Shown here in pieces: positions 21,406 through 56,116 of a stretch of DNA of 64,000 nucleotides. Origin of the DNA: a virus. Location of the stretch: the IMG/VR virus record IMGVR_UViG_3300032323_002772, positions 1-64,000 of that record; one strand, given 5' to 3'. The notes below the pieces were generated by a model. It ran no database searches, was not told the DNA's origin, and was given only the letters and a program-made list of their open reading frames with translations. The number at the start of each line of letters is the position of its first letter. Within the stretch, counting starts at the first letter, position 1. The position numbers and the translations under genes are program-made.

Positions 21406-23256
21406 ATGGATGTAACACAGAGTATTCTCAGTGAGATTACAACGTATATGAAATACGCTAAATTTAGACCAGAATTAAACAGAAGAGAGACATGGGAGGA
21501 GTTAGTCACGAGAAACAAAGAAATGCATCAAACTAAATTCCCACAACTAAAAAATGAAATCGAAGAAGCTTATAGATTGGTCTACGCTAAAAAGGTATTA
21601 CCATCGATGCGTAGCTTACAGTTTGCGGGTAAGCCCATTGAACTTAATAATGCTCGCATATTTAATTGCAGTTTTCTGCCTATTGATGATTGGCGTTCGT
21701 TCAGCGAAATAATGTTCTTATTGTTGAGCGGATGTGGAGTAGGATACTCAGTACAAACACATCACGTAGATCAATTACCAGAAATTAAGGTACCAACCAA
21801 ACAAAAAAGATACCTAATAGGCGACAGTATTGAAGGATGGGCTGATGCTGTGAGAATGCTTTGTAAAGCGTATTTTACGGGTGCTCCTTTGCCTTTATTC
21901 GACTTTAGAGACATTAGAGCTAAAGGTGCTCAGTTGATTACTGTAGGTGGTAAAGCACCTGGTCCTGAACCATTAAAAGAATGTTTATTCAACTTACAAA
22001 AAGTATTTGATCGTAAACAAAACGGTGATAAATTAACATCATTGGATGCTCATGATATGGCTTGCCATATTGCAGATGCAGTATTATCTGGTGGTATCAG
22101 ACGTGCAGCATTAATCTCATTATTCAACTTGGATGATGAAGCAATGTTAACTTGCAAATTTGGAAATTGGTGGGAAGAAAATCCACAAAGAGGACGTGCT
22201 AACAACTCTGCAGTTGTAATGCGTCATAAAATTGACGAAGAAGAATTCTTCAAATTATGGAAGAAAATTGAATTAAGTGGATCTGGTGAACCAGGTATTT
22301 ACTTCAGCAACGATAAAGATTGGGGTACTAACCCATGTTGTGAAATTGCTTTACGTTCTTATCAGTTCTGTAACTTATGTGAAGTAAACGTTTCAAACGT
22401 TGAATCACAAGAAGACTTAAACGAAAGAGTACGTGTAGGTGCCTTTATTGGTACATTACAAGCAGCATATACTGACTTCCATTACTTAAGAGATGTATGG
22501 CGTAAAACAACTGAGAAAGATGCTTTATTAGGTGTTGGTATGACAGGTATTGGATCTGGAACTATATTAGCTTATGATTTAAAGAAAGCAGCTGATTTAG
22601 CTAAAGAAGAAAATGCAAGAGTAGCTGAAATCATTGGTGTTAATAAAGCAGCTCGTGTAACTACAGTTAAACCATCAGGTACTTCATCATTAGTATTAGG
22701 TACTGCAAGTGGTATTCACGCTTGGCACAATGACTTCTATATCAGACGTATTCGTGTAGGTAAGAATGAAGCTATTTATAATTATTTAGCTGTTAACCAC
22801 CCAGAATTAGTTGAAGATGATTTCTTCAAACCAACAATTCAAGCTGTAATTTCAGTTCCACAACGTGCTCCACAAGGATCAATTTTAAGAACTGAAAACG
22901 TAATGGATATGTTAGAGCGTGTTAAGAAATTTAACATGCAGTGGGTTAAGAAAGGACATCGTAGAGGTGCTAACACAAACAACGTATCTGCAACTGTATC
23001 AATTCAAGAAGGCGAATGGGAACAAGTAGGACAATGGATGTGGGATAATAAAGACACATTTAATGGCTTATCAGTATTACCTTATTTCGGAGGTACTTAC
23101 AAACAAGCCCCATTCGAAGATATTACTGAAGAACAATTCAATGAAATGGCTCAATATTTACATTCAATTGATTTAAGTAAGGTTGTTGAATTTAGCGACG
23201 AAACAGCACTAATGGATCAAGCAGCTTGTGCTGGTGGTGCATGTGAAATAGTATAA
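21406..23256 (+). CDS. nrdJ: Class II (B12-dependent) ribonucleotide reductase
   Basis: 616 residues, monomeric type. Features seen are FNCSFLPI (first redox Cys), the LSGCGVGYSVQ segment, NPCCEI, the CNLCEVNVSN finger-loop region and TVKPSGTSS (substrate phosphate binding). The C-terminal ACAGGACEIV carries the Cys608/Cys613 relay pair. This pattern matches the adenosylcobalamin-dependent ribonucleoside-triphosphate reductase family (Lactobacillus leichmannii RTPR). No small radical-generating subunit gene is present nearby, as expected for class II. It would supply dNTPs from host pools and depends on host cobalamin. Confidence 0.88.
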   Translation: MDVTQSILSEITTYMKYAKFRPELNRRETWEELVTRNKEMHQTKFPQLKNEIEEAYRLVYAKKVLPSMRSLQFAGKPIELNNARIFNCSFLPIDDWRSFSEIMFLLLSGCGVGYSVQTHHVDQLPEIKVPTKQKRYLIGDSIEGWADAVRMLCKAYFTGAPLPLFDFRDIRAKGAQLITVGGKAPGPEPLKECLFNLQKVFDRKQNGDKLTSLDAHDMACHIADAVLSGGIRRAALISLFNLDDEAMLTCKFGNWWEENPQRGRANNSAVVMRHKIDEEEFFKLWKKIELSGSGEPGIYFSNDKDWGTNPCCEIALRSYQFCNLCEVNVSNVESQEDLNERVRVGAFIGTLQAAYTDFHYLRDVWRKTTEKDALLGVGMTGIGSGTILAYDLKKAADLAKEENARVAEIIGVNKAARVTTVKPSGTSSLVLGTASGIHAWHNDFYIRRIRVGKNEAIYNYLAVNHPELVEDDFFKPTIQAVISVPQRAPQGSILRTENVMDMLERVKKFNMQWVKKGHRRGANTNNVSATVSIQEGEWEQVGQWMWDNKDTFNGLSVLPYFGGTYKQAPFEDITEEQFNEMAQYLHSIDLSKVVEFSDETALMDQAACAGGACEIV

Positions 23257-23258
23257 AA

Positions 23259-23327
23259 ATGAGTCATGATAATCTAGTACAAAACATAATAAGTGGGATG
23301 TACGGAAGCATTAAAGGAAATAGATGA
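23259..23327 (+). CDS. Very short coupled ORF (22 residues)
   Basis: Reading from ATG 23259 gives a 22-residue peptide whose TGA overlaps the ATG of the next gene (ATGA at 23324-23327). It fills the gap between nrdJ and the DUF5522-like gene. It may be a leader that couples translation rather than a functional protein. Low confidence because of its size. Confidence 0.35.
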   Translation: MSHDNLVQNIISGMYGSIKGNR

Positions 23328-23527
23328 AACAGTTTATTGAAAATGTAGATTATTATATGGAGGGCGAGCGCGTGATTTTCACAGCGCTCACCCACATTAA
23401 TCGTGGATCTTGCTGTGGTAATGGATGTAGACATTGTCCTTATTCTCCAAGACATGATAGAGGAAATGTGGTGTTGTCAGAAAAATTACTTAAATTTAAT
23501 TCAAATAAAGAAAATGGATCCAAATAA
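23324..23527 (+). CDS. DUF5522-like cysteine cluster protein
   Basis: 67 residues. ALTHINRGSCCGNGCRHCPY is the hallmark of the DUF5522 family, small Bacteroidota proteins with a CC-x3-C-x2-CPY cluster, probably metal or Fe-S binding. Function of the family is unknown to me. Its occurrence in a phage points to a Bacteroidota host. It overlaps the next gene by 14 bases. Confidence 0.8.
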   Translation: MKQFIENVDYYMEGERVIFTALTHINRGSCCGNGCRHCPYSPRHDRGNVVLSEKLLKFNSNKENGSK

Positions 23528-23902: not shown

Positions 23903-24364
23903 ATGTCAAAGTTTCAGTCAACTAAGTTATTTGATGGTTTTAGTACAGTATTTCGTCAATTTAAAGCAGAAGGTACCCACTGCAGATTTCTTCATGGTTA
24001 TGGGGTATCATTTAGAGTATGGTTCGAAGGCGAACTAGACGAACGTAATTGGGTTTGGGATTTTGGAGGTATGAAACGTGCTAACGGCACTATCGATGGT
24101 ATGAATCCTAAAGCATGGATGGACCATATGTTTGACCATACTACAATTGTAGCTGAAGATGATCCTGGAATTGGTGGGTTTAAGACAATGGATCAACTTG
24201 GTATTATTCAATTAAGAATACTCCCAGCTGTTGGAGCAGAACAGTTTGCAAAATATATTTTTGAAAAATTGAACACATTCGTTCAAGAAGAAACTAGCGG
24301 TAGAGTTAAAGTTGTAAGAGTAGAATTCATGGAAAACAACAAAAATACCGCTATATATGAATAA
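23903..24364 (+). CDS. queD: 6-carboxytetrahydropterin synthase-like protein (QueD)
   Basis: 153 residues. The catalytic Cys and first loop appear in THCRFLHGYG (Cys27, His31), followed by the FDHTTI Asp-His pair and a C-terminal VEFMEN Glu. QueD turns dihydroneopterin triphosphate into carboxytetrahydropterin, the second step to preQ0. In E. coli QueD the zinc ligands are His16, His31 and His33; here the aligned positions read Phe17, His31 and Tyr33, so two of three appear replaced. His26 might compensate. Neighbours QueC, QueE, FolE and DpdA make a preQ0 role likely. Confidence 0.85.
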   Translation: MSKFQSTKLFDGFSTVFRQFKAEGTHCRFLHGYGVSFRVWFEGELDERNWVWDFGGMKRANGTIDGMNPKAWMDHMFDHTTIVAEDDPGIGGFKTMDQLGIIQLRILPAVGAEQFAKYIFEKLNTFVQEETSGRVKVVRVEFMENNKNTAIYE

Positions 24365-24632
24365 AAAGTCAAAGAAGGCTCAGCGCAAAGAAATTATTGA
24401 GCAAAATCCCCCACTATACCTTAGTGAAGGTCATTGGGATGATGCTATGTTAGAAGATAATAGTTACTATGATATAGATATTATTAATAAAGCTAATGCT
24501 CCTATTTTTAGAAAAATAGAAGAATGGGAGAAAAACTATGCTAATGCCTCTAGCAACATGGGAAAATGGTACTGCCAGTTACAAATTGATAAATGGAAAA
24601 AGAAACTACACAGCTATGAAAGTAAGTCATGA
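24357..24632 (+). CDS. Hypothetical protein between queD and dpdA-like gene
   Basis: 91 residues, starting 8 bases before the queD stop. Basic N-terminus (KKSKKAQRKEI), then a region with several Trp residues (GHWDDAML, KIEEWEKN, KWYCQLQIDKWKKKL) that may bind nucleic acid or partner helices. The transglycosylase gene starts within its last codons. Function unknown; conserved position would suggest an accessory to DNA modification. Confidence 0.65.
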   Translation: MNKKSKKAQRKEIIEQNPPLYLSEGHWDDAMLEDNSYYDIDIINKANAPIFRKIEEWEKNYANASSNMGKWYCQLQIDKWKKKLHSYESKS

Positions 24633-25401
24633 ATTACCTTTAGGATTAATGCATTATGCCTATGAGTGGAATGATTATGATTATTGTCTTCCACATCTAA
24701 TAGATCATTACGATCAATATAGAATATTCTTTCAGAAATCACGTTTAGACAAACGTTTCATTATAATGGACAATGGTCTTTTCGAGGGTGTAGTTCATAC
24801 AACTGAAGACTTATTAGAAAAAATTAATTTAGTTCGTCCTAATATATTCATTGTTCCTGATGCTTGGAATGATGCTACAACTACCCTTCGCAACGCTAAG
24901 AGTTGGATGATTAACTACAAACAACATATACCTGAAGGTGTTAACTTAATGGCAGTATGTCAAGGTAATGATATGGGAGAATTAATTACAACATATCAAA
25001 CATTAGTGGATTTAGGTTATACTCACATCGCATTTAACCACTCAAGTATTGCATACCAGAAAGAATATGAAGGAATGGATCATCTAAAAGCAGCAATGTA
25101 CGGTAGAATGGAATTTATTAGACGTTTAGTTGCATCTAATACTATTAGAAAATCACATTATCACCACCTACTAGGATGTTCACTACCACAAGAATTTATG
25201 TCATATAAAGACTGGACATTTATTAAATCAGTAGATACGTCTAATCCAATTTTAGTTGGTGCTGAAGGCGAAAAATATAGTGATAGTGGTTTAACATGGA
25301 AACCTAAAGAGAAACTTGAGTACTATTTTGAAAAAGATTTAAGTGGGCAGAAAGAAGATATTACATTTAATGTACACAAATTTAGATCATTTATTAAATA
25401 A
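24616..25401 (+). CDS. dpdA: DpdA-like 7-deazaguanine DNA transglycosylase (TGT superfamily)
   Basis: 261 residues from ATG 24616; an in-frame ATG at 24538 would lie inside the upstream gene. The sequence reads as a compact TIM barrel: IIMDNGLFEG (Asp52, in the place of the TGT DSGGFQ loop), VPDAWND (Asp82), AVCQGNDMGELI, HIAFNHSSI, HHLLGCSLPQEF and SVDTSNPI (Asp207 as a candidate nucleophile). This pattern matches phage DpdA proteins, which swap guanine in DNA for a 7-deazaguanine base. With QueD/C/E and FolE, and no QueF in view, the inserted base is predicted to be preQ0 or a derivative. Exact subtype is unsure. Confidence 0.75.
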   Translation: MKVSHELPLGLMHYAYEWNDYDYCLPHLIDHYDQYRIFFQKSRLDKRFIIMDNGLFEGVVHTTEDLLEKINLVRPNIFIVPDAWNDATTTLRNAKSWMINYKQHIPEGVNLMAVCQGNDMGELITTYQTLVDLGYTHIAFNHSSIAYQKEYEGMDHLKAAMYGRMEFIRRLVASNTIRKSHYHHLLGCSLPQEFMSYKDWTFIKSVDTSNPILVGAEGEKYSDSGLTWKPKEKLEYYFEKDLSGQKEDITFNVHKFRSFIK

Positions 25402-25408
25402 AAAAGTT

Positions 25409-25609
25409 ATGACAGAATTTATTTCACTTTACGATTATTTAGGTAAAGCAGCAGGTAAGGAATTAGGTAAGCAAGTAGCAGAAGTTGCAGCAGCATCTAG
25501 AGTACCATGCAAAACAAGACAAGTATCAAATACAAAATATGCTGGTCCTGTTATGTTATATCCAAGAATATTTTTAGAGTTATATTTTATAGCACATAAT
25601 AACGCTTAA
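25409..25609 (+). CDS. Small hypothetical protein before queC
   Basis: 66 residues from ATG 25409; an earlier in-frame ATG at 25343 lies in the dpdA-like gene. It starts with an amphipathic helix (YDYLGKAAGKELGKQVAEVA), then a short basic stretch and a C-terminal hydrophobic segment (YPRIFLELYFIAH). Its stop codon falls within the hairpin that precedes queC. Family not recognised, though similar small proteins may be widespread in phages of this type. Confidence 0.65.
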   Translation: MTEFISLYDYLGKAAGKELGKQVAEVAAASRVPCKTRQVSNTKYAGPVMLYPRIFLELYFIAHNNA

Positions 25610-25644
25610 ACGGGAGTAAGCGTTTAATAAGTAAATACGATCCC
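25601..25644 (+). promoter_or_regulatory. Hairpin with possible pseudoknot in the queC leader
   Basis: AACGCTTA (25601-25608) pairs with TAAGCGTT (25617-25624) around an 8-base loop containing GGGA (25612-25615), which can pair with TCCC at 25641-25644. This would form an H-type pseudoknot 18 bases before queC. There is no T run, so simple termination is unlikely. Could be a regulatory RNA; evidence is base pairing only. Confidence 0.4.
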
Positions 25645-25661
25645 AAATAAACTCATTTTAA

Positions 25662-26525
25662 ATGAAAAAAGCAGTTTTATCATTATCAGGTGGAATGGAC
25701 AGTAGTTCATTATTGTTACACCTATTAGCTAACGGCTATGAAGTAACAGCATTAGGTTTCGATTATGGCCAGAAACACAAAGTAGAATTAGAACGTGCTA
25801 CATCATTAGTACAGTACGTTAACGAAAAGAATTGTGGATGTGGTGGTAAACCTATCTATGGAAATATAACTTTCCAAATCATCAAATTAGATGGTTTATC
25901 ACAATTACTAAACTCATCTTTAGTAACTGGTGGAAGTGATGTACCAGAGGGACACTACGAACAGGACAACATGAAAGAAACAGTTGTACCTAACAGAAAT
26001 AAAATATTTAGTTCATTGATTCAAGCAGTAGCATTATCAGTTGCAACTAAGAATATTGGTGATGATTGTGCTGTAGGAGAGCCAGTAGCGATTGCGATGG
26101 GGATCCATGCTGGTGATCATGCTATTTATCCTGATTGTAGACAAGAGTTCCGTGATGTTGATTTTGAAGCATTTAAAGCAGGTAATTGGGATGCTGACTT
26201 AGTATACCATTACACTCCATACCTTGAAGTTAATAAATTTGATATTTTAGAGGACGGGCAAAAATCTTGTGATATCTTGGGTCTCGATTTTAATGAAGTA
26301 TATAAGCGTACAAATACATCTTATAAACCAATCTACTATTGCCAAGGTGATGAATTCGGAGAATGGTTCTCAGATTACAAGTCAGCAGCATCAGTAGAAC
26401 GTATTGAAGCATTTATTAAATTAGGACATCCTGATCCTGTAGAATATGCTGATGAAACAGGACCAGTAACATGGGAAGTAGCTAAGGCTCATGTAGAAAA
26501 AGTATTAGCTGAACACAATTCGTAA
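25662..26525 (+). CDS. queC: 7-cyano-7-deazaguanine synthase-like protein (QueC)
   Basis: 287 residues, longer than typical QueC (~230). The ATP pyrophosphatase loop SGGMDSS is at 9-15, VPNRN and the HAGDHAIYPDCRQEF segment follow, and the C-terminal SVERIEAF corresponds to the family's VxR end. QueC converts carboxydeazaguanine to preQ0. In E. coli four Cys bind zinc near the C-terminus; here the aligned positions are Ser220, Asp238, Ser241 and Ser244. A new NCGCGG insertion (Cys58, Cys60) is present. The ATP site is intact, so activity is plausible despite the lost zinc site. Confidence 0.85.
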   Translation: MKKAVLSLSGGMDSSSLLLHLLANGYEVTALGFDYGQKHKVELERATSLVQYVNEKNCGCGGKPIYGNITFQIIKLDGLSQLLNSSLVTGGSDVPEGHYEQDNMKETVVPNRNKIFSSLIQAVALSVATKNIGDDCAVGEPVAIAMGIHAGDHAIYPDCRQEFRDVDFEAFKAGNWDADLVYHYTPYLEVNKFDILEDGQKSCDILGLDFNEVYKRTNTSYKPIYYCQGDEFGEWFSDYKSAASVERIEAFIKLGHPDPVEYADETGPVTWEVAKAHVEKVLAEHNS

Positions 26526-26544
26526 ACAAAAATCAAATATAGTT

Positions 26545-26781
26545 ATGAGTTATCAAACTAAGGTTCGTGCGAACTACCTTAACCGCACAGCAAAATTGTC
26601 ATTCTTCACACACCGTCAACGCACTGGTGATTTGACAAGATTGTCTGAAGAAACAGGTTATTCAGTTAGCCACTTGTCAAACATTACAAGTTTGAGACGT
26701 AGAGTAACAGATGAGATTGCTAATGCAATGTACATGTTAACACGTCGTCGTATGAAAAACACTGAATTCGCTCAAGCGTAA
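26545..26781 (+). CDS. Small helix-turn-helix DNA-binding protein
   Basis: 78 residues, very basic. Residues ~22-60 (QRTGDLTRLSEETGYSVSHL, then NITSLRRRVTDEIANAMY) look like a helix-turn-helix of the XRE / LacI type, with a GYSVSHLSNI recognition helix. It ends just before a strong terminator and could regulate the modification genes. The target is unknown. Confidence 0.7.
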   Translation: MSYQTKVRANYLNRTAKLSFFTHRQRTGDLTRLSEETGYSVSHLSNITSLRRRVTDEIANAMYMLTRRRMKNTEFAQA

Positions 26782-26789
26782 TTCACCCA

Positions 26790-26821
26790 ACATCCACCCC
26801 TAAAAAGGTGGATGTTTTTTT
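26790..26821 (+). terminator. Rho-independent terminator
   Basis: ACATCCACC pairs with GGTGGATGT around CCTAAAAA, followed directly by a run of T. A strong terminator that ends the queD-HTH block. Confidence 0.9.
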
Positions 26822-26832
26822 AATTTATTATT

Positions 26833-26955
26833 ATGCATGAAATATTACATATATTAGGACTATGTGGAGATAAACATCCGAGTGTCATCGCTGTAATTAG
26901 TGAGTGGCATAATTTTAGTCCTATATTCAATTATATAAAAACATTATTTAAATGA
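26833..26955 (+). CDS. Short ORF coupled to queE (40 residues)
   Basis: MHEILHILGLCGDKHPSV opens a 40-residue reading frame whose TGA overlaps the queE ATG (ATGA, 26952-26955). It is the first ORF after the terminator, so it may be a real small protein or a leader that sets translation of queE. No family recognised. Confidence 0.5.
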   Translation: MHEILHILGLCGDKHPSVIAVISEWHNFSPIFNYIKTLFK

Positions 26956-27791
26956 GCAAAATTGATCCACATAAACTACTAATCAGTAGTGATTTCTACA
27001 CTGTGCAGGGTGAAGGTATTTCATCAGGCGTTCCTTCATACTTCGTACGTTTTGGTATTTGCAACCTAACTTGCGGTATGAGTAGAGCATTTACTAACCA
27101 ATTAATGAAAGATAAGAATCTAGAAGACGGTGAAATCTTCGAAGGTGATCTACATAAGGAAGGTAAAGCAACCTGGACTTGTGACTCTACATCTCAGTGG
27201 TTATGGAGAGGTGAAGATAAAGAGTTCGATTATCTAATTAATCGTTGGAAAGAAGAAGGCGTATACGACTACATTAAAGATGGTTCTGTTCATATTATCT
27301 GGACTGGTGGTGAACCAACAATTAAAGGGCACCAAGAATCAATCGTTAACTTTACTAATTATTGGTTGAGTAGATATCTTGATAGAAATGATGTAACACC
27401 GTTCTATGAAATAGAAACTAATGGTACAATTGTAATTGAAGAACCATTATTCGTAATGTTGGATCAGATTAACTGTTCACCTAAGTTAAATAACTCAGGT
27501 ATGACTGAGAAACAACGTATTGTTCCTGCTGCTATCAAGCGTATTATGGAACATAAAAACTATCAGTTTAAGTTCGTTATCAGCACAGAAGAAGATGTAC
27601 AAGAATTATTCCGTGACTTCATAGTACCATTTAATATACCGCTTAAAAACGTTGTTTGTATGCCTGGCTTAGACGATGCTGCTAACTTTGAAGAGCGTAC
27701 TCAGTTCTGTCTTGAAATGGCTAAGAAGTATAGATTCCGTGGTTTAACTAGATTGCATATTGCAGCTTGGAATAAAACATTAAACGTATAA
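26952..27791 (+). CDS. queE: 7-carboxy-7-deazaguanine synthase-like radical SAM protein (QueE)
   Basis: 279 residues. Starts with the QueE-type FYTVQGEGISSGVPSYFVRF, followed by CNLTC (Cys37, Cys41) and then WTCDST (Cys77). The radical SAM cluster is thus CX3C-X35-C, with an insertion between the second and third Cys; QueE enzymes are known to vary here. IWTGGEPT is the SAM-binding GGE motif, followed by YEIETNGT. QueE contracts the pterin ring to carboxydeazaguanine. All three Cys are present, so it should be functional. Confidence 0.88.
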   Translation: MSKIDPHKLLISSDFYTVQGEGISSGVPSYFVRFGICNLTCGMSRAFTNQLMKDKNLEDGEIFEGDLHKEGKATWTCDSTSQWLWRGEDKEFDYLINRWKEEGVYDYIKDGSVHIIWTGGEPTIKGHQESIVNFTNYWLSRYLDRNDVTPFYEIETNGTIVIEEPLFVMLDQINCSPKLNNSGMTEKQRIVPAAIKRIMEHKNYQFKFVISTEEDVQELFRDFIVPFNIPLKNVVCMPGLDDAANFEERTQFCLEMAKKYRFRGLTRLHIAAWNKTLNV

Positions 27792-27799
27792 TATGGAAA
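27774..27799 (+). repeat. Gene-junction repeat, copy 1
   Basis: AAAACATTAAACGTATAATA followed by TGGAAA: spans the queE stop and the start of the next gene. An identical 26-base copy lies at 27964 and a one-mismatch copy at 28135. Confidence 0.85.
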
Positions 27800-27981
27800 C
27801 TTTAGAAATAAGAATTAAATCTAGCTATTTAGAAGGTGAACTAGTCGTAAAATTAAATTCAGAAGAGAGTGATATAGAAAATATTCGTAAAGAAATTATG
27901 TCTATTATTATAAAAGAAAGTGACAGAATTGCTCAAGGTAAACCATCATATGAAGAATTAATAAAAACATTAAACGTATAA
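27793..27981 (+). CDS. Small hypothetical protein (cassette 1)
   Basis: 62 residues: a beta-like start (METLEIRIKSSYLEGELVVK) then an acidic helix and the end YEELIKTLNV. The last residues KTLNV are the same as those of QueE because the repeat covers the stop. It is the first of two tiny genes bounded by the junction repeat. Function unknown. Confidence 0.65.
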   Translation: METLEIRIKSSYLEGELVVKLNSEESDIENIRKEIMSIIIKESDRIAQGKPSYEELIKTLNV

Positions 27982-27989
27982 TATGGAAA
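27964..27989 (+). repeat. Gene-junction repeat, copy 2
   Basis: Identical to copy 1 at 27774-27799 over 26 bases; spans the stop of cassette 1 and the start of cassette 2. Confidence 0.85.
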
Positions 27990-28144
27990 ATATAATAGAA
28001 GTAAAATTTTGGATGGAACTTGAAACTACAGTAGATAATATGAATGAATTTACTAAAAGTGAAGATTATAGATTAGTAGCTGAAATACTTAAAAAGCATT
28101 CTATTGATGCAGTTATTTGCTCTAAAGTAAAACCAAAACATTAA
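27983..28144 (+). CDS. Small hypothetical protein (cassette 2)
   Basis: 53 residues beginning MENIIEVKFWMELETTVDNM, helical, ending in a basic KVKPKH. It is bounded by the second and third copies of the junction repeat and follows the previous small gene after one base. No family recognised. Confidence 0.6.
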   Translation: MENIIEVKFWMELETTVDNMNEFTKSEDYRLVAEILKKHSIDAVICSKVKPKH

Positions 28145-28160
28145 ACATATAATATGGAAA
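28135..28160 (+). repeat. Gene-junction repeat, copy 3 (one mismatch)
   Basis: Same 26-base unit with one G-to-A change (AAACATAT in place of AAACGTAT), spanning the stop of cassette 2; the next ATG is at 28154. Confidence 0.8.
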
Positions 28161-28387
28161 AAGATCATTGTATATTATGTGGTGTGGAAACCATATATGA
28201 CAAATCAACTCACGTTGATATGAGGCTTGGCTATATTGAAGGTGCTGGCCAATTATGTCCTAAATGTTATGAAGCAGGAACATACCGCAACCATATTCTA
28301 GTACCAGAATGGTTAGTTGAAAAGAATCCTAATAATCAAGAGTTGGGAGCCAAAGTAAGGGCATTATATTTCGAAAGTAAAAAATAA
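28154..28387 (+). CDS. Small zinc-finger-like protein
   Basis: 77 residues with CILCG near the N-terminus and CPKCYE about 28 residues later, a CxxC...CxxC zinc-binding pair. Between them is THVDMRLGYIEGAGQL. Similar four-Cys proteins are frequent in phage early regions. It lies directly before folE. Role unknown. Confidence 0.7.
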   Translation: MEKDHCILCGVETIYDKSTHVDMRLGYIEGAGQLCPKCYEAGTYRNHILVPEWLVEKNPNNQELGAKVRALYFESKK

Positions 28388-28391
28388 ATAA

Positions 28392-29024
28392 ATGGAATTA
28401 TTAAAGAAATCAAATGGTAGTTTAGCTCGTACACCAGAACAAGTGGAGCAAATGATTAATAATGCATCTGAAGCGTATGCTCAGTTCCTTACAGCAGTAG
28501 GATTTGACTACAAAGCAGATAGACAAACTGAAGATACACCTCGTCGTGTAGCTAAAGCGTGGTTAAAGGACTTAATCGTAGGTAGTATTAGTGATGAACC
28601 AAACATTACAGTATTCCCTAATGATGAAGGTTATAGTGGATTAGTAATTCAATCAGGTATTCCTATCGTTAGTATGTGTGCACATCACAACTTAGCCTTT
28701 ACAGGTTATGCTACTGTGGCTTACGTACCAGGCGAAAACGTTATTGGTTTAAGTAAATTAAACCGTATTGTAGAATGGTTTAGCCGCAGACCACAAATGC
28801 AAGAATCATTAACACAACAAATTCATGATTACATTGCTGATAAAATGTCATGTGAATCAGTAGCAGTTAGTATTGCTTGTAAGCACACATGTTGCTCACA
28901 TAGAGGTATTAAACATCCATCTGTAATGACTACAAATAAGTTTAGTGGTGTGTTTATGGAAAAAGATAATTTAATTAGAGAAGAATTCTTACACGCGATT
29001 GAAGTAAATGGAACAAAATTTTAA
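28392..29024 (+). CDS. folE: GTP cyclohydrolase I
   Basis: 210 residues, normal size. Core motifs: QTEDTPRRVAKAW, SMCAHHNLAFTG (zinc Cys and substrate His), YVPGENVIGLSKLNRIV and CKHTCCSHRGI (second zinc Cys). It converts GTP to dihydroneopterin triphosphate, the substrate of QueD, so it feeds the phage preQ0 pathway. All catalytic residues expected of the family can be seen. Confidence 0.95.
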   Translation: MELLKKSNGSLARTPEQVEQMINNASEAYAQFLTAVGFDYKADRQTEDTPRRVAKAWLKDLIVGSISDEPNITVFPNDEGYSGLVIQSGIPIVSMCAHHNLAFTGYATVAYVPGENVIGLSKLNRIVEWFSRRPQMQESLTQQIHDYIADKMSCESVAVSIACKHTCCSHRGIKHPSVMTTNKFSGVFMEKDNLIREEFLHAIEVNGTKF

Positions 29025-29025
29025 T

Positions 29026-29418
29026 ATGAACAAAAGATTTATTACCTGGGACTATATTGAGACTGCTGTGGATAACATAGCATCTCAAGTAGAATCCAGT
29101 GGGCTAGATATTCAATATATATTTGGAATGCCTAGAGGAGGATTAATACCTGCTGTAATGTTATCTCATAAATTAAACATTCCACTATTTAAATTTGGAA
29201 TGGTATTAAATAATAAAGTACTGATAGTAGATGATATTTGCGATTCAGGACTAACATTACACAAGTATAATGTTCCAACAGCAGCAATTCACACAAAAGA
29301 AACTGCATCTATACAACCAACATTCTACTATGAAATAGTAGATAAAGATTGGATAAATTATCCATGGGAGAGAGCAGATTCAAAAACAATACAAGATTAT
29401 GCAACCAAAGGAGAGTAA
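29026..29418 (+). CDS. Phosphoribosyltransferase
   Basis: 130 residues from ATG 29026; the longer reading from 29008 overlaps folE. IFGMPRGGLIPAVMLSHKL is the pyrophosphate loop and KVLIVDDICDSGLTL is the PRPP-binding motif of type I phosphoribosyltransferases (Gpt/Hpt type). It could salvage purines or handle a modified base linked to the deazaguanine pathway. Substrate is not predictable from motifs. Confidence 0.88.
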   Translation: MNKRFITWDYIETAVDNIASQVESSGLDIQYIFGMPRGGLIPAVMLSHKLNIPLFKFGMVLNNKVLIVDDICDSGLTLHKYNVPTAAIHTKETASIQPTFYYEIVDKDWINYPWERADSKTIQDYATKGE

Positions 29419-31475: not shown

Positions 31476-32486
31476 ATGTCGTTAGAGTTAAGGAACGTTA
31501 ATGGTAATGGTTCTTTTGAATTAAAGAATATAAATAATAGTGGGTACTTCAGTTTAGCCTTTTCGGGCAGTGAGGTACCTACTACTACAACCACTACTAG
31601 TACAACTAGCACTACTACAACGGTTCCAACAACAACGACAACGACTACAACAACAACAACAACAACCACAACTACTACGAGTACAACAACTACTACCACT
31701 ACTATTATTCCTATTAGTGGATCTGTATTTACACAAATAAACACTATTATGCCTTATTTAAGAGCAAATAGTGGTAGTTTAAGAAATCCAAGTTTCTTTA
31801 CTTATTTCTTAGATGGCAATGCCTACTCTATAACAGATGGTGGTAACGATATGTTTGATGGAGGTAATTTTACTGCACCTTGGCTACGCAACAACACAAG
31901 CTATATAGCAGGTAATTCAATACCTACACCAACACCATCATTAAATTATAGTTCTCAATCATCTACATTAACTGATACTAACTTCTATTATGCTGCTTCA
32001 GGATATATTCCAGCAACAGGATCATTCCCAGCTGGTACTCAAAGCGGAATTTTCCATCCATTAACAATGATTGGTGCTAGAAGTGGATCAGGACCTATTG
32101 GATTCCAAAAGGCAGGTAATATTGGAGCTGATGGTGGTGGTTCCTTAATTACTGGAAGTATATATTCTGGATCTGTGGTAAATGGATTTACAGCACATGC
32201 TTTCTATCGCCAATCATTTGGTCAGTTATCCGATCCATCAATATGTGACGTTTATGTATTATTAGGTCATCCAAATTGGGGTTCTACATTTGATATAGTA
32301 GTATCTAGCTCAGTAGCTGGTACTCAACTTCAAGGTGCTGCTTTATACGCTACTGGTTCATCTAGTGAATTATTAGCAATGACTACATTGTTAAGTAGTC
32401 TTTCATCATCTGCAATACCATCTGGTAGTGTTAAAACAGTAGTTGATAATTACATTACATTAGTAAAAACAGTACTTAACTACTAA
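31476..32486 (+). CDS. Putative virion / fibre protein with long Thr tract
   Basis: 336 residues. A short N-terminal repeat-like section (ELRNVNGNGSFELKNINNSG) is followed, at about 35-75, by an almost pure Thr/Ser tract of ~40 residues. A Ser/Gly/Thr-rich globular region then runs to a helical end (VVDNYITLVKTVLNY). No enzymatic motif. The tract would be extended and open to O-glycosylation, and its DNA is an ACA/ACT/ACG-rich repeat prone to length change. The late-type element upstream supports a structural role although the gene lies among enzymes. Confidence 0.75.
   Translation: MSLELRNVNGNGSFELKNINNSGYFSLAFSGSEVPTTTTTTSTTSTTTTVPTTTTTTTTTTTTTTTTTSTTTTTTTIIPISGSVFTQINTIMPYLRANSGSLRNPSFFTYFLDGNAYSITDGGNDMFDGGNFTAPWLRNNTSYIAGNSIPTPTPSLNYSSQSSTLTDTNFYYAASGYIPATGSFPAGTQSGIFHPLTMIGARSGSGPIGFQKAGNIGADGGGSLITGSIYSGSVVNGFTAHAFYRQSFGQLSDPSICDVYVLLGHPNWGSTFDIVVSSSVAGTQLQGAALYATGSSSELLAMTTLLSSLSSSAIPSGSVKTVVDNYITLVKTVLNY
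31578..31708 (+). repeat. ACN-rich low-complexity repeat encoding poly-Thr
   Basis: About 130 bases of imperfect ACA/ACT/ACC/ACG triplets interrupted by AGT/AGC, within the gene at 31476. Purely in-frame triplet structure, so length changes by whole codons would be tolerated. Confidence 0.85.
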
Positions 32487-32522: not shown

Positions 32523-35099
32523 ATGTATCAATCAATATTTTACGAGGGCAAACCCAACTATAAATTTCATCTACGCGACGATAAGAAAGGCTGGAGCGAA
32601 TTCAGCTACACTGTACCTCGCTTTGCTATTGATCCAAATGGTCAATACCCAACATTAGATGGTAAACGAGCTAAATCCGTTACCAAATATGAATGGAACG
32701 ATAATCATCTATATGAGTCTGATATTGATAGGCTAACTGCTGTATTAATTGATAAATACAAAGACAGTGATGATACTCCTGAATGGCAGAATATAGTTTA
32801 CTTCGATATTGAGTGTGAGATTGGAGGTGCCTTAACTACAGAATACATTAAGACAGCACCAATGAAGATTACTTCAATCTCATTGTATGATGCTACAGCT
32901 AAAAAATATTACTGTCTAATATTAGACGAGAAAAAACAATTAACGTCTATTGATGAAGAAGATAAGCAGGTTATACCATGTGATGATGAAGAACAATTAT
33001 TACGCTTATTCCTTGATTTATGGGAATCGGTTGATCCAACTATCATCACAGGATGGAATAGTGGATTCTTTGACGTTCCTTACCTGTATTATAGATTATG
33101 TAATGTATTAGGTAGAGATGAAGCTGCTCGTTTATCTCCAATCCGTAAAATTAAATTTACTGAATGGGATCAAGCTCAACCTATTGAATTAGGAGGTATT
33201 AATCACCTAGACTATCTATTACTATATAAGAAATATAATCCTAAAAACGAACCGTCTTACAAACTAGGTGATATAGGAACTAAATACGTTAATTTAGGTA
33301 AGATTGAATATGAAGGTAATTTAGATCGTTTATTTAGAGAGGATGTAAATAAGTACATTGAATATAATATTCGTGACGTTGAAATTATTATTGAATTAGA
33401 AAAGAAATTCAAATTTATTGAATTAACAGTTGCTATCTGTCATTTGTGTCATGTGCCTTATGAAATGATTTATTTATCAACTGTACTGAATGATGGCGCT
33501 ATATTAACTTACTTAAAACGTAACAATATAGTATCACCAAATAAACCAACTACTACTAATCCATCACTTAAAGAAGCACATGAAGAATATGCTGGTGGAT
33601 ACCTAAAAGATCCAGTACCAGGATTATATGAATGGGTTATAGATTTGGACTTTACGTCGTTGTATCCGTCCATTATACGCTCGTTAAATATTGGTATTGA
33701 AACGTTCGTTGGACGAATAGTAAATAGAGATAAATACGATAATAACTGGACATTAGATGATCTACGTCAAATGGATCCTAATGAAGTGATTACTATTGAG
33801 AAACTAACCCCAAGACAAACAACACAACAAGCACAAGTAAAAGTAGGTACTTTACTATCATTAATCCAGGAAAATGGATGGCTACTAGCAGCATCAGGTG
33901 CTATGTTTAGAACAGATCGTTCATCAGTTGTATGTGAAGTATTAACTGATTGGTTTAATAAGCGTGTCGAATATAAAAATAAAATGAAGAAAGCCTATAA
34001 AGCAGGCGATGCTGTTAAAGGTGAATTCTATAATCGTAGACAACACGCATATAAAATTAAATTGAATGACGTTTATGGTTGTTATGCTATTAATGGTTGG
34101 CGCTATACTGATGGCCATAAAATGATATCTAAAGCTATTACATTAACCGGTCAACGTGTAACACAAGAATCAATTAAGTTCTGTAATGAATGGATGAATA
34201 CACAATTAGGTACTGAAAATAAAGATTATGTTGTTACTTCAGATACTGACTCATTATTTATTCAGGTTAAGGACTTAGTATTACAACGTTATCCTGAAAC
34301 TAAAACTAAGGACGAATACATTAAAGCAACATTAGAAATCACTACTGAAATACAAAAAGCAGCAAACGATAATATTGATCGTGTTACTAGAGATTATTTC
34401 AATGTTGGTACACGTGAGCATTATTTTGAATTAAAGCAGGAAGTGATTATTGAAAGGGGTTACTTTGCAGGTAAACGTCGTTATGCAATGTACATTGTAA
34501 ATAAGGAAGGTGTTACTGTTGATGAATTAGATATGAAGGGATTAGACCTAATGAAATCAAATATGACTCCAATGTACTCTAAATTTGGAGAGAAATTGAT
34601 CCAAGACATTATGTTTGGTAAACCTAAACCAGAAATTGATCAACAAATAATTGACTTTAAAAAATACGTTAAGGACATTCCTATCGATCAATTAGCTAAA
34701 CCAACTGGGGTTAAGAATGTAGAATCATATATTGAGCGTGCCCCTAAAGCAGGCGAAATATTTAGCATATTAAAACTAAAATGTCCTATCAATACTAAAG
34801 CTGCTATCTACTACAATGATCTACTTAAATTTAAAAAAGTAGATAAGCAATATCCTCGTTTTACCGTTGGAGATAAAATGAAATATATTCAATTAAAAAC
34901 TAACCCATACAATATCGATGTAATTGGATTTACAGGTAATGATCCTGATTTCATTAATAAGCTGATTGATGAATTTGCTGATAGAGAGGAGGGATTCGAA
35001 TCAACATTATTAAATAAACTGAAAGGCATTTATGAGGACTTAGGATGGAATTTCCCGTCATTAAACGATAAGGTAAATAAATTCTTTAAATTTGTTTAG
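32523..35099 (+). CDS. gp43: Family B replicative DNA polymerase (gp43-like)
   Basis: 858 residues, close to T4 gp43. Proofreading exonuclease motifs: YFDIECEIGG (Asp95, Glu97), ITGWNSGFFDVPYL, and YNIRDVEII. Polymerase motifs: DLDFTSLYPSII (Asp374, Asp376), KIKLNDVYGCY near 512, and SDTDSLF (Asp574, Asp576). A KKGRR-type region is seen as FAGKRRYAMY. All catalytic acids are present, so this is the main replicase, working with the clamp and loader encoded downstream. Confidence 0.97.
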   Translation: MYQSIFYEGKPNYKFHLRDDKKGWSEFSYTVPRFAIDPNGQYPTLDGKRAKSVTKYEWNDNHLYESDIDRLTAVLIDKYKDSDDTPEWQNIVYFDIECEIGGALTTEYIKTAPMKITSISLYDATAKKYYCLILDEKKQLTSIDEEDKQVIPCDDEEQLLRLFLDLWESVDPTIITGWNSGFFDVPYLYYRLCNVLGRDEAARLSPIRKIKFTEWDQAQPIELGGINHLDYLLLYKKYNPKNEPSYKLGDIGTKYVNLGKIEYEGNLDRLFREDVNKYIEYNIRDVEIIIELEKKFKFIELTVAICHLCHVPYEMIYLSTVLNDGAILTYLKRNNIVSPNKPTTTNPSLKEAHEEYAGGYLKDPVPGLYEWVIDLDFTSLYPSIIRSLNIGIETFVGRIVNRDKYDNNWTLDDLRQMDPNEVITIEKLTPRQTTQQAQVKVGTLLSLIQENGWLLAASGAMFRTDRSSVVCEVLTDWFNKRVEYKNKMKKAYKAGDAVKGEFYNRRQHAYKIKLNDVYGCYAINGWRYTDGHKMISKAITLTGQRVTQESIKFCNEWMNTQLGTENKDYVVTSDTDSLFIQVKDLVLQRYPETKTKDEYIKATLEITTEIQKAANDNIDRVTRDYFNVGTREHYFELKQEVIIERGYFAGKRRYAMYIVNKEGVTVDELDMKGLDLMKSNMTPMYSKFGEKLIQDIMFGKPKPEIDQQIIDFKKYVKDIPIDQLAKPTGVKNVESYIERAPKAGEIFSILKLKCPINTKAAIYYNDLLKFKKVDKQYPRFTVGDKMKYIQLKTNPYNIDVIGFTGNDPDFINKLIDEFADREEGFESTLLNKLKGIYEDLGWNFPSLNDKVNKFFKFV

Positions 35100-37078: not shown

Positions 37079-38698
37079 ATGAGTAAAATAATAAAATTTA
37101 ATCGCGAAGCGAAAGAAAAACTACAAGCAGGTATTGATAAAGTAAATAACGCTGTAGCAGTTACGATGGGTCCTTTTGGACGTAATGTACTAATTGAAAA
37201 AGAACATGGACAAGTAAGTAGCACTAAGGATGGTGTTACAGTTGCTAAAACAATTTCATTGGAAGATCCAATTGAAAATATGGCTGCAACAGTAATTAAG
37301 CAAGCAGCATCTAAAACAGTTGATGCAGCTGGTGATGGTACAACTACATCTACTGTATTGGCTCATGCTATTGCTAAACAAGCATTAGATATTACTGCTC
37401 ATTCATCTACTAATGCTACTCAAGTAAAACGTGGTATCGAAGAGGCTGTTAAAATAATAGTTGCTGAATTAAAGAAAATGTCTGTAGACATTACTGATGA
37501 AAAGCAAATTAAACAAATTGCCACTCTATCAGCTAATGGCGATACCGAAATTGGAGAATTAGTAGCTACAGCTATTGATAAAGTAGGTAGAGACGGAATT
37601 GTAACAGTTGAAGAATCTAGATCAGGTGAAACTGAACTTGAAGTAGTAGAGGGATTACAATTCGATAGAGGTTATAAATCACCTTATATGGTGACTGATA
37701 ACAACACAATGCAATCAATTTTAAATGATGCCTTTGTATTGCTATATGATGGTCGTTTAAGTGCAATTAAGGATTTACTTCCTGTTCTTGAGCGTGTATC
37801 ATCTGATAATAAAGCATTATTGATTGTAGCTGAAGATATTGATGGTGAAGCACTATCTACTCTTATTGTAAATAAAATGAGAGGTATCTTGAAAGTAGCT
37901 GCTGTTAAAGCACCTGACTTTGGAGAACGTAGAACGTTAATTTTAGAAGATATTGCTACTGTAACTGGTGGTACTGTAATTTCACCTGCTAAAGGTATGA
38001 AATTAGAACGCTTCAATATGGAGTGGTTAGGTAAAGCTAGAACAATTACTGTAGGTAAAGATACTACTACTATTGTTGATGGTAAAGGAGGTGAAGATAA
38101 AATTAACGAGCGTATTTTAGAAATCAAATCTCAGATTGAAGGATCTAATTCACCATATGAGGTAGAACGTTTACAAGATCGTTTAGCTAAAATCGTTGGT
38201 GGTGTAGCTATTATTAATGTAGGTGGTGGTACTGAAATTGAGATGAAAGAAAAGAAAGATCGTATCGATGACGCTTTACAAGCTACAAAAGCCGCTCTTG
38301 AAGAAGGTGTATTACCAGGTGCTGGTGTAGCATTACTACAAGCAAGAAAAGCTCTTGATATTAACAACTCAGGTAATGATGATAAGAATAAAGGTAAACA
38401 AATTGTATTTGTAGCTTGTGGAAAACCATTTAAACAAATCTTAACAAACGCTGGTGAAGATCATAATAATTGGTGGATGCAATTAATTAAAACCATTAAT
38501 ATGGTTCCTAATATTGCCGATGGAACAATAGTAGACGCATTTGAATCAGGTATTATCGATCCTACTAAAGTAGTACGTTGTGCCCTTGAAAATGCTGCTC
38601 ACGCTGCGGTTACATTGTTGATGACTGAATGTGTTATCCACGATAAGCCAACAGAGAAAAAGAAAGACGAACTTGATTTATCATCATTAGGAATGTAA
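37079..38698 (+). CDS. groL: Chaperonin GroEL
   Basis: 539 residues, near full length. Seen motifs: VAVTMGPFGRNVLIEK, DGTTTSTVLAHAI (ATP binding, catalytic Asp), LSANGDTEIG, VEEGVLPGAGVAL (here ALEEGVLPGAG) and AAHAAVTLLMTECVI. The C-terminus ends DLSSLGM rather than a GGM tail. It differs from host GroEL in the region before the end, where GEDHNNWWMQLIKTINMVPN replaces the usual GYNAATGE segment. Probably assists folding of large virion proteins in the phage's own mode. Confidence 0.96.
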   Translation: MSKIIKFNREAKEKLQAGIDKVNNAVAVTMGPFGRNVLIEKEHGQVSSTKDGVTVAKTISLEDPIENMAATVIKQAASKTVDAAGDGTTTSTVLAHAIAKQALDITAHSSTNATQVKRGIEEAVKIIVAELKKMSVDITDEKQIKQIATLSANGDTEIGELVATAIDKVGRDGIVTVEESRSGETELEVVEGLQFDRGYKSPYMVTDNNTMQSILNDAFVLLYDGRLSAIKDLLPVLERVSSDNKALLIVAEDIDGEALSTLIVNKMRGILKVAAVKAPDFGERRTLILEDIATVTGGTVISPAKGMKLERFNMEWLGKARTITVGKDTTTIVDGKGGEDKINERILEIKSQIEGSNSPYEVERLQDRLAKIVGGVAIINVGGGTEIEMKEKKDRIDDALQATKAALEEGVLPGAGVALLQARKALDINNSGNDDKNKGKQIVFVACGKPFKQILTNAGEDHNNWWMQLIKTINMVPNIADGTIVDAFESGIIDPTKVVRCALENAAHAAVTLLMTECVIHDKPTEKKKDELDLSSLGM

Positions 38699-42913: not shown

Positions 42914-44374
42914 ATGAAAGAAGGTTATATTCCGCAAGAAAAACGTAAGAAAATCTTATTGTTATGTGACGACATCCGAATGACAAGTGGTATTTCCACT
43001 ATGGCTCGTGAAATCGTTATTGGTACTGCTCATCACTACAACTGGATAAATGTAGGTGGAGCAATTACCCACCCTGATAAAGGTAAACGCTTTGATCTCA
43101 GTGAAGATACTAACAACAATGCTGGTATTACTGATTCAAGTGTATTTCTATATCCAACAGATGGATATGGATCACCAGAATTAATTAGACAGCTAATCCA
43201 GGTTGAAAAACCAGACGCATTGATGATGTTTACAGATCCAAGATATTGGATTTGGTTATTTCAAATTGAACATGAGATTAGAAAGCAAATGCCAATTATT
43301 TATTTAAATATTTGGGATGATCTACCTTATCCAATGTACAATAAGTCGTTCTATGAATCATGTGATGCTCTGTTAGCTATTAGTAAGCAAACTGAAAATC
43401 TTAATCATTGTGTATTAGGACCTGAGTTGGCAGCTGAAAAAGTAATTAAATATGTTCCACACGGGATTAATGAAAATTTCTTCTTCCCTATTAAACCAGA
43501 ACATCCTGAGTATTTAGCTTTACAAGAATATAAGAAAGCACTTTATGGTAGTGAGCAATATGATTTTAATTTACTTTACAATGCTAGAAACATTCGCCGT
43601 AAATCAGTTCCTGATTTGATGCTAGCTTGGAAAATATTCATTGATCAGTTGCCATTGGAAGAAGCTAAAAAGTGTGTATTTACACTCCATACCCAACCAA
43701 TGGATGAGAATGGAACAGATCTACCAGCAGTAAAAGATATGTTATTTGGAAGACTACCTCAATACAATATTGCATTCTCAACAGGTAAAAATCCATCCAA
43801 CATAATGAACCTACTTTACAATACAGCTGATGCAGTAGCTCTTATCAGCTCAAATGAAGGATGGGGATTATCATTAACAGAAGGAATGATATGTGGTAAA
43901 CCAATCATCGCTACTGTAACAGGTGGTATGCAAGACCAAATGCGTTTTGAAGACGAAAATGGTGAGTGGATTAAATTCACTGAAGAATTCGGTTCAAACC
44001 ATAGAGGCAAATATAAGAAACATGGTAGTTGGGCTTTCCCAGTATTCCCTTCAAACCGTAGTTTAGTTGGATCAATTCCAACACCTTATATCTTTGATGA
44101 TAGAGCTGAACCACATGATATAGCTGAGCAAATAATGAAGGTATATAGATTGAAAATGGATCAACCGGATTTATATAATACAGTTTGTCAACAAGCTCAC
44201 GAGTGGGTTCATTCAGATGAATCAATGATGACAGCTGCTAATATGTGTAAAAACGCAATTGAAGGCATTGATGAAACATTTAAAAAGTGGCAACCTAGAT
44301 ATGCATTTGAATTGATGAAAGTAGAACCACTTGAACAACCTAAACATTTTGTAAAACACGTTATCGCACAATAA
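42914..44374 (+). CDS. Family 4 glycosyltransferase
   Basis: 486 residues. The N-terminal half contains LLCDDIRMTSGISTMAREI (acceptor-side loop) and the C-terminal half has the NDP-sugar site SSNEGWGLSLTEGMICGKP with the EX7E pair, then PIIATVTGG. It has the two Rossmann domains of GT-B enzymes. It follows the regulator and begins the cluster. Donor and acceptor are unknown. Confidence 0.88.
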   Translation: MKEGYIPQEKRKKILLLCDDIRMTSGISTMAREIVIGTAHHYNWINVGGAITHPDKGKRFDLSEDTNNNAGITDSSVFLYPTDGYGSPELIRQLIQVEKPDALMMFTDPRYWIWLFQIEHEIRKQMPIIYLNIWDDLPYPMYNKSFYESCDALLAISKQTENLNHCVLGPELAAEKVIKYVPHGINENFFFPIKPEHPEYLALQEYKKALYGSEQYDFNLLYNARNIRRKSVPDLMLAWKIFIDQLPLEEAKKCVFTLHTQPMDENGTDLPAVKDMLFGRLPQYNIAFSTGKNPSNIMNLLYNTADAVALISSNEGWGLSLTEGMICGKPIIATVTGGMQDQMRFEDENGEWIKFTEEFGSNHRGKYKKHGSWAFPVFPSNRSLVGSIPTPYIFDDRAEPHDIAEQIMKVYRLKMDQPDLYNTVCQQAHEWVHSDESMMTAANMCKNAIEGIDETFKKWQPRYAFELMKVEPLEQPKHFVKHVIAQ

Positions 44375-44375
44375 T

Positions 44376-45668
44376 ATGAAACCACTAGTTTTTATAAGCT
44401 GCCCAATTGATACATTTTCTGGTTATGGCGCTAGATCAAGAGATATTGCTTTAGCAATTATCAAATCAGACAAATATAATGTTAAAATATTACCTCAACG
44501 TTGGGGAGCAACTCCATTTGGATTCCTACAACAAGACAATCCAGATCATAAATTAATAATGGACTGTATATGGCAACAACCACAACTTCCAAAACAACCA
44601 GATTGCTGGATTCAAATTACTGTACCTAATGAGTTTCAAGCTGTAGGTAAATTTAATATTGGTATTACTGCTGGTATTGAAACCACAGTATGTGCTCCTC
44701 AGTGGGTTGACGGTATTAATAGAATGGATTTAACATTAGTATCATCTGAACATGCTAAAAAGGTATTTCAAGGAAGTACATTTGAAGAAAAAAATAACCA
44801 AACCGGTCAAGTAATTAGAAAAATTACACTTGAAAAACCAATAGAAGTATTATTTGAAGGTGTAAATACAGACATTTATAAGAAATTAGATAATGTTGAA
44901 GGTGAAGTAGTAGAAGCATTAAATGATTTAGTTAAAGAAGATTTTAATTTCTTATTTGTAGGTCACTGGTTACAAGGTGAAATAGGACAAGATAGAAAAG
45001 ATGTCGGAATGATGATTAAGACATTTCTTGAAACATTCAAAAATAAAAAACAACGCCCTGGTCTTATCCTTAAAACATCAGCTGGTAACTATTCTATTAT
45101 GGATAGAGATTCTATCTTGGATAAGATTAGACAAATTGAAGAAGCAACTGAAGGCGATTTACCAAGTATCTACCTACTGCATGGTGAATTAAGCGATGAA
45201 GAAGTAAATATACTTTATAATCATCCTAAAGTAAAAGCACACGTATCATTTACTAAAGGTGAAGGATATGGTCGCCCACTTATTGAAGCATCTATCAGTC
45301 AAAAACCAGTAGTAGTTTCAAATTGGAGTGGACATTTAGATTTCCTTGATCCAGAAATGTCAACTTTACTTCCAGGACAATTAACACAGATACATTCCTC
45401 ATCAGTGGTACAAGACATGTTATTGCCTGAATCAAGTTGGTTTACTGTTGATTATAAAAAAGCAGCTGATACACTTGAAGATGTTTATAAGAATTATAAG
45501 AAATATACTGATGGAGCAAAGAGACAGTCGTACCGTTCACGTACTGAATTTAATTTAGATAAAATGTCTGAAGAGATAGTTAGCTTATTGGATTCAAAAA
45601 TCCCAAAACAAGTTGAATTTAAACTTCCTCAACTACAAAAGATTGAATTACCTAAAAAACCAGTATAA
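44376..45668 (+). CDS. Family 4 glycosyltransferase
   Basis: 430 residues. FISCPIDTFSGYGARSRDIA is an N-terminal acceptor loop; FTKGEGYGRPLIEASISQKP is the EX7E donor site followed by VVVSNWSGHLDFL. It is separated from the preceding GT by one base and shares its fold, but the sequences are divergent. Probably adds a different sugar to the same glycan. Confidence 0.88.
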   Translation: MKPLVFISCPIDTFSGYGARSRDIALAIIKSDKYNVKILPQRWGATPFGFLQQDNPDHKLIMDCIWQQPQLPKQPDCWIQITVPNEFQAVGKFNIGITAGIETTVCAPQWVDGINRMDLTLVSSEHAKKVFQGSTFEEKNNQTGQVIRKITLEKPIEVLFEGVNTDIYKKLDNVEGEVVEALNDLVKEDFNFLFVGHWLQGEIGQDRKDVGMMIKTFLETFKNKKQRPGLILKTSAGNYSIMDRDSILDKIRQIEEATEGDLPSIYLLHGELSDEEVNILYNHPKVKAHVSFTKGEGYGRPLIEASISQKPVVVSNWSGHLDFLDPEMSTLLPGQLTQIHSSSVVQDMLLPESSWFTVDYKKAADTLEDVYKNYKKYTDGAKRQSYRSRTEFNLDKMSEEIVSLLDSKIPKQVEFKLPQLQKIELPKKPV

Positions 45669-46063
45669 TGAAAGAACAACTAATAATATGTCCTAGATGT
45701 GGAGGTAATGCTTGTCACGAAGCATCAAACGAACAATTCACAGTATGGAGTTGCTTCGGATGTGGATTTACGGCAAACATTACCACCACAGATGACAATT
45801 TAGAAAATATTGAAGGTGTAATGCCTCAGCTTTACATTGATCTTAAATTTAAAGATGATAAAGGATATAACTGGTATCCATCTACAGTAATCTTAGAAGA
45901 CAAATCAATGGTATTTGCTGATGGTAAAACAACTGAAGATTGGAAGTGGGCAGGTGTGCAATCAAAAGATGATAAAGCAGATATGACTACTATTAAACAC
46001 TTTGAAGAAAAAGACTTTATGGAAGCTTTAGATTATATTGGCTTCTTCCAAAAACAAAAATAA
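45668..46063 (+). CDS. Zinc-ribbon protein in glycan cluster
   Basis: 131 residues; its ATG overlaps the preceding stop. CPRCGGNACHE and later CFGCGF form a zinc ribbon, followed by an uncharacterised domain rich in Asp/Lys and Trp (YNWYPSTVILEDKS and TTEDWKWAGV). Not recognised as a catalytic family. It may bind nucleic acid or stabilise an enzyme complex in this block. Confidence 0.7.
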   Translation: MKEQLIICPRCGGNACHEASNEQFTVWSCFGCGFTANITTTDDNLENIEGVMPQLYIDLKFKDDKGYNWYPSTVILEDKSMVFADGKTTEDWKWAGVQSKDDKADMTTIKHFEEKDFMEALDYIGFFQKQK

Positions 46064-46067
46064 TGTT

Positions 46068-46718: not shown

Positions 46719-47128
46719 GCGACAGAAAGTATCTCCCAACATTAAGTGAACTAATCGATAGATTAAGTATTACACAATTAAAAGAAGTGTTTATTGTAGA
46801 ACACAAAGCAGAATATGCTCAAGAAATAGCTGACATCGTACATGATATTCAGTTACATCTTAACGAGAGTAAAGAACCAATTACTGCTGATACAATCAGA
46901 GCAATTGTAGTATTATCTCAAATGAACTTACATATTTGGCATAACGAATCAAATGTAAGATCAGGTAAATCAGGTCCAAATGCATTAGCATTAACTCACG
47001 GATTGAATGGTATTCGCAATACTGCTAAAAACCAAATTCAAGAAGTAATGGGCGGACGTAAGGACTATAAAATTGACTGCTTAGCTGCTGATTTTAAAGA
47101 CTGGGAAATATCATGGAAAAACCAATAG
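46715..47128 (+). CDS. Hypothetical conserved helical protein
   Basis: 137 residues. All-helical with SELIDRLSITQLKEVFI, NLHIWHNESNVRSGKSGPN (a possible His-containing site) and LTHGLNGIRNTAKNQ. Proteins of this sort accompany surface sugar genes in large phages, but I do not recognise a function. Overlaps neighbours at both ends (4 and 16 bases). Confidence 0.65.
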   Translation: MSDRKYLPTLSELIDRLSITQLKEVFIVEHKAEYAQEIADIVHDIQLHLNESKEPITADTIRAIVVLSQMNLHIWHNESNVRSGKSGPNALALTHGLNGIRNTAKNQIQEVMGGRKDYKIDCLAADFKDWEISWKNQ

Positions 47129-47484: not shown

Positions 47485-47488
47485 TAAT

Positions 47489-48406: not shown

Positions 48407-48409
48407 CAT

Positions 48410-56113: not shown

Positions 56114-56116
56114 AAA

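Follow-up and report, generated by a model that had tools for sequence, protein, structure and literature searches.

In the phages CAjan and Rosebush, a gene set of FolE, QueD, QueE, QueC and DpdA that includes neither QueF nor an amidotransferase led to dPreQ0 (PMC6884629), and a vibrio phage with QueF inside the cluster had dPreQ1 (PMC12028318). The Campylobacter phages CP220 and CPt10 (Firehammervirus) are given another base, with 100% dADG, the deoxynucleoside of 7-amido-7-deazaguanine (ADG), in place of G, in the statement of PMC8306585 that cites Crippen et al. Here a gene cluster related to these is described in a 64-kb stretch (the window; positions 1 to 64,000) of the 68,431-base virus record IMGVR_UViG_3300032323_002772, which is a fragment of a T4-like phage. 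The phage DNA very probably contains some 7-deazaguanine inserted by the DpdA-type transglycosylase of this cluster, and judging from the gene set, dPreQ0 is favoured, with some reserve, as its main base; the step to preQ0 would be carried out by a QueC-family protein that has lost the zinc motif.

Like CAjan and Rosebush, the window has FolE, QueD, QueE, QueC and DpdA and no QueF or amidotransferase; it differs in that its DpdA is short and distant, its QueC is zinc-less, the metal motifs of its QueD and QueE are variant, and its base is a prediction. The earlier note had read FolE, QueD, QueE and QueC as covering the route from GTP to preQ0, and all four are indeed found, with family matches, on the + strand within 23903-29024, together with dpdA:

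23903..24364, + strand: QueD-family 6-carboxytetrahydropterin synthase with a variant metal site, HGY not HGH (PTPS 7.7e-15; phrog_2389 2e-38; TIGR03367 below cut-off)
24616..25401, + strand: predicted DpdA-type DNA-guanine transglycosylase, short, TGT fold, type A (tblastn, alignment, AlphaFold2 model and Foldseek)
25662..26525, + strand: zinc-less QueC-family protein, predicted preQ0 synthase (PF06508 1.6e-33; motifs; QueC fold)
26952..27791, + strand: QueE-family radical SAM 7-carboxy-7-deazaguanine synthase with a C-x3-C-x35-C insertion (phrog_2076 7e-39; match to the solved QueE 4njg)
28392..29024, + strand: FolE GTP cyclohydrolase I (PF01227 1.3e-48; 4du6 3e-33)

The phage nature of the window is seen in its genes for tail sheath and tube, UvsX-like and gp32-like proteins, a DnaB-type helicase, a family-B polymerase, clamp and clamp loader (where Pfam gives no match, the name comes from sequence reading). 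A scan of IMG/VR with the window QueC yielded hundreds of relatives, and dozens of related viral contigs have the set of five genes as well. The Ka/Ks values of the FolE, QueD, QueE, QueC and DpdA genes against these relatives are 0.04-0.20, so all five genes are maintained under purifying selection; with the recurrence of the set, this excludes chance. The QueD protein has HGY in all relatives scored, in place of the zinc-binding HGH of Escherichia coli QueD, and a phmmer search of QueD against PDB gave no match. In QueE, the Pfam Radical_SAM match is marginal (E 0.098) and the QueE models stay below cut-off; the insertion of 35 residues that separates cluster cysteines two and three is conserved in the relatives.

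The resemblance of the 24616 protein to phage DpdA, also proposed in the earlier note, was borne out by several lines of evidence, although family profiles hardly detect it: nothing was found above the Pfam threshold, and the NCBIfam DpdA model NF041059 gave 13 bits (E 0.033), far from its cut-off of 200. With tblastn, relatives were found only in Campylobacter Firehammervirus phages, including CP220 (35%), and in Flavobacterium immuto phages (33.5%), where the match is annotated as 'DNA guanine transglycosylase'; the homology is full-length, with 33.5-35.5% identity to the CP220 and immuto proteins across 99% of the query. The AlphaFold2 model of the protein has a pLDDT of 94.6, and its top Foldseek matches are all TGT (5e-8) or the bacterial DpdA structure 7ui4, 'DNA preQ0 insertase DpdA' (1.3e-7, probability 1.00); a protein of the Cellulophaga phage phiST aligns to the model with TM 0.89. 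Searching PDB with a sequence profile of the DpdA alignment produced no convincing TGT match, with 7ui4 at E=1.7 only; it was structure comparison that revealed the match. In an alignment of 32 relatives, D52, D82, Q116 and D207 are invariant, and these may include the counterparts of the catalytic Asp residues of TGT. The gene is under strong purifying selection (Ka/Ks 0.06-0.13). The protein thus has the TGT fold in common with 7ui4-type bacterial DpdA, which has 406-436 residues compared with 261 in the window, and is assigned to a short, DpdA-type kind of phage protein that is predicted to exchange bases on DNA and does not belong to the NCBIfam DpdA family. We take this short kind, found in CP220 and immuto, to be the one labelled DpdA3.

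Among the relatives, the DpdA proteins fall into types with different identity to that of the window: type A (about 60-91%), type C (48-50%) and type B (about 30%). Of 28 viral contigs, all eight of type B have both QueF and a formyltransferase, and none of the 16 of type A or the four of type C has either. The earlier note had seen no QueF, and the full 68,431-base record yielded none above cut-off, its 18-bit match sitting inside FolE; the low-scoring QueF matches of the type A contigs likewise fall within FolE-length open reading frames (ORFs). Because the record is a fragment, the absence of QueF is established on full-length relatives, and it is credible since several of the type A contigs without QueF are 155-183 kb long. 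ArcS-type and GATase_6 domains were also looked for and none was present, and a comparison of gene content between three type A genomes and one of type B revealed no recognisable extra base-modifying enzyme. The DpdA type tracks the DNA polymerase family, types A and C occurring with PolB (one type A contig has neither polymerase) and type B and immuto with PolA; the window polymerase lies at 32523-35099. The Flavobacterium phage immuto_2-6A (Immutovirus) resembles the window in its zinc-less QueC (61.6% identical), its HGY QueD, its DpdA (33.5%) and a neighbouring phosphoribosyltransferase (PRTase), but it differs in having QueF, the formyltransferase and a family-A polymerase, as in type B phages.

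The QueC-family protein of the window has 108.9 bits against TIGR00364 (cut-off 150.3). It has in common with canonical QueC (cluster 1 of PF06508, PMC13329287) the motifs SGGxDS, YxQxHxxE, VPxRN and YPDC, here SGGMDS, YGQKHKVE, VPNRN and YPDC, as well as the conserved Lys and the Tyr that adjoins the zinc motif. The zinc motif C(x)8CxxCxxC, however, which a 2026 survey of the family gives as the canonical QueC hallmark (PMC13329287), is absent: in the aligned motifs inspected, all four cysteines are replaced (Ser/Asp/Ser/Ser), and a phage-specific hypervariable loop occupies the region, which reads TSYKP-loop-SDYKSAASVER. The window protein is therefore called QueC-like and not a canonical zinc QueC. 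The motif was present in none of 148 related loci, a number that counts some contigs twice, having come from two scans, and no description of a zinc-less QueC was found in the literature searched. Phage QueC lineages are mixed between DpdA types: the QueC tree shows 15 changes, against a minimum of 3 and a mean of 31 after shuffling.

Zinc-less QueC is also found in cells, including Cysteiniphilum, Facilibium, Fangia, Poseidoniales archaea, Pirellulaceae and others, with Thiotrichales and Verrucomicrobiales among the groups represented, and it often adjoins QueD and QueE. Of such bacterial and archaeal genomes, 17 were checked, and none has any other full-length QueC; TGT is encoded in 16 of them and QueF, above cut-off, in ten. 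As the sole full-length QueC of these genomes, nearly all with TGT, it probably still makes preQ0. The QueF of type B phages and immuto keeps its catalytic Cys and Asp (equivalence by motif), and the zinc-less QueC of these phages should thus supply preQ0. It is therefore most likely, as far as these sequences tell, that the zinc-less protein works like QueC and would convert 7-carboxy-7-deazaguanine (CDG) to preQ0.

Other ORFs accompany the five genes, and a PRTase follows them directly:

24357..24632, + strand: small ORF between queD and dpdA, overlapping both, which many relatives have (no family match)
25370..25609, + strand: small ORF present in the compared type A genomes and absent from the type B genome (no Pfam match)
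26545..26781, + strand: small ORF in type A relatives, HTH-like by a weak match (phrog_1124 E 0.067)
29008..29418, + strand: Gpt-like purine phosphoribosyltransferase whose gene overlaps folE (3.3e-12 to the xanthine PRTase model PRK09177, below its cut-off)

Of 51 type A loci with FolE, 26 have a Gpt-like PRTase, as do three of 34 of type B and also immuto; possibly it recycles the guanine released in base exchange by DpdA.

In the pathway proposed here, FolE, QueD and QueE would convert GTP to CDG, the zinc-less QueC would take this through ADG to preQ0, and the short DpdA-type transglycosylase would swap guanine of the phage DNA for preQ0; the resulting dPreQ0 DNA would be expected to resist guanine-recognising restriction enzymes. 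That preQ0 itself is the base, as the earlier note expected, is plausible from the dPreQ0-type gene set (FolE, QueD, QueE and DpdA, with QueC as a zinc-less variant) that the window has in common with CAjan and Rosebush, but the chemistry of CP220 and CPt10 and the loss of the QueC zinc motif, the latter overlooked in that note, count against it. These two phages have the nearest DpdA relatives with known DNA chemistry, at 35%, and their base is dADG as far as the account in PMC8306585 goes; no tested DpdA is more than about 35% identical to that of the window; the activity of a QueC without its zinc motif is a prediction; and there may be a further, unrecognised downstream enzyme. Palindrome avoidance as a sign of modification was uninformative, because mild avoidance is seen in all sequences, including the fully modified CP220.

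That the DNA base is dADG, with a zinc-less QueC that stops at ADG, is unlikely, although the best tblastn relatives of the DpdA are in CP220-type phages with fully substituted dADG DNA (PMC8306585, through its citation of Crippen et al.) and the QueC zinc site is gone. CP220 and CPt10 differ from the window in a QueD of another type and in a QueC that keeps the zinc cysteines, so zinc loss is not the cause of dADG there, and QueF-containing phages and cellular genomes with TGT depend on a zinc-less QueC; the reading of zinc loss as a sign of ADG instead of preQ0 was thereby weakened. It is quite improbable that preQ0 or CDG is modified further by an unrecognised enzyme of type A phages, so that the final base would be another 7-deazaguanine derivative. 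Several such further derivatives were reportedly found in phages by Cui et al. in 2023, and the type A-associated small ORFs of the cluster (25370-25609 and 26545-26781) could be counted for it as well; the lack of a recognisable downstream enzyme in the genome comparison and of QueF, formyltransferase, ArcS-type and GATase_6 domains speaks against it.

The conserved TGT-fold gene inside the cluster, with its low Ka/Ks, and the presence of its relatives in phages with fully substituted DNA make it very improbable that the genes merely raise preQ0 for queuosine in host tRNA while the phage DNA remains unmodified, a role proposed for phages that have preQ0 genes without DpdA (PMC6884629). Nor is there more than a marginal chance that the PRTase makes a 7-deaza nucleotide for incorporation by the polymerase, with DpdA not being the entry route. 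The overlap of the PRTase gene with the end of folE, its presence in immuto and the modified-dGTP route once proposed for Campylobacter phages (PMC6884629) would fit such an activity, but the PRTase is missing from about half of the FolE-containing type A loci and from most of type B, whereas dpdA is nearly always present among the related loci.

Two regions of the phage QueC are hypervariable when relatives are compared:

25824..25871, + strand: QueC hypervariable loop 1, about residues 55-70
26331..26369, + strand: QueC hypervariable loop 2, residues 224-236, at the former zinc site

In 93 unique QueC proteins, loop 2 has from 5 to 32 residues and 34 cassette families, loop 1 has 24 families, and cassettes recur across the DpdA types. 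On a FastTree protein tree built without the loops, which makes the change counts approximate, there are 29 cassette changes for loop 2 (minimum 10, shuffled mean 49) and 30 for loop 1 (minimum 6, shuffled mean 38). QueC pairs that are 98-99% identical outside loop 2 carry unrelated loop 2 sequences, and the clearest of these pairs differs in its DNA only over about 120-240 bases at loop 2 and in another short patch farther downstream, which probably lies within the QueE insertion. Internal gaps among the relatives are many in QueE and few in DpdA, FolE and dCTP deaminase. Among zinc-less QueC sequences from cells, those inspected have a short and nearly constant loop region. Here it is tentatively proposed, as a rather doubtful explanation, that the zinc-free QueC is a widespread preQ0-making branch whose zinc site was turned in phages into a modular, recombining surface loop, joined by a second one near residue 60, and diversifying because hosts recognise or inhibit the 7-deazaguanine enzymes of the phage. 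Relaxed constraint with frequent recombination is another possible cause of the variation.

Around the cluster, a gene for a DUF5522 protein (CCGNGCRHCPY, 23324-23527) lies directly upstream and is kept by most relatives, and an adenosylcobalamin-dependent ribonucleotide reductase (21406-23256) adjoins a thioredoxin gene. A 31-base repeat with a terminal start codon (27774-27804, 27964-27994 and 28135-28165) stands ahead of three consecutive small genes; through it, QueE and the next ORF share the C-terminal KTLNV, and chance is not expected to give such a repeat. The window also has a threonine-run (mucin-like) protein (31476-32486) with a repetitive DNA tract, a phage-encoded GroEL-like chaperonin (37079-38698, by sequence reading) and a long island (42914-59670) of glycosyltransferase-, epimerase- and aminotransferase-like genes, which may serve to change surface glycans.

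The predicted pathway is a known anti-restriction strategy, and the novelty of the locus lies mainly in its zinc-less, loop-swapping QueC. The less expected result is a QueC branch without the hallmark zinc motif that is apparently the sole QueC of several bacteria and archaea. The phages look modular, with a common preQ0-making core and with DpdA, QueF, formyltransferase, FolE type and polymerase family travelling together, and such linked modules would allow the base to be read from gene content. If the loops answer host defence, a new sensor or inhibitor acting on the base-modification enzymes of phages would be implied, with QueC as an arms-race battleground.

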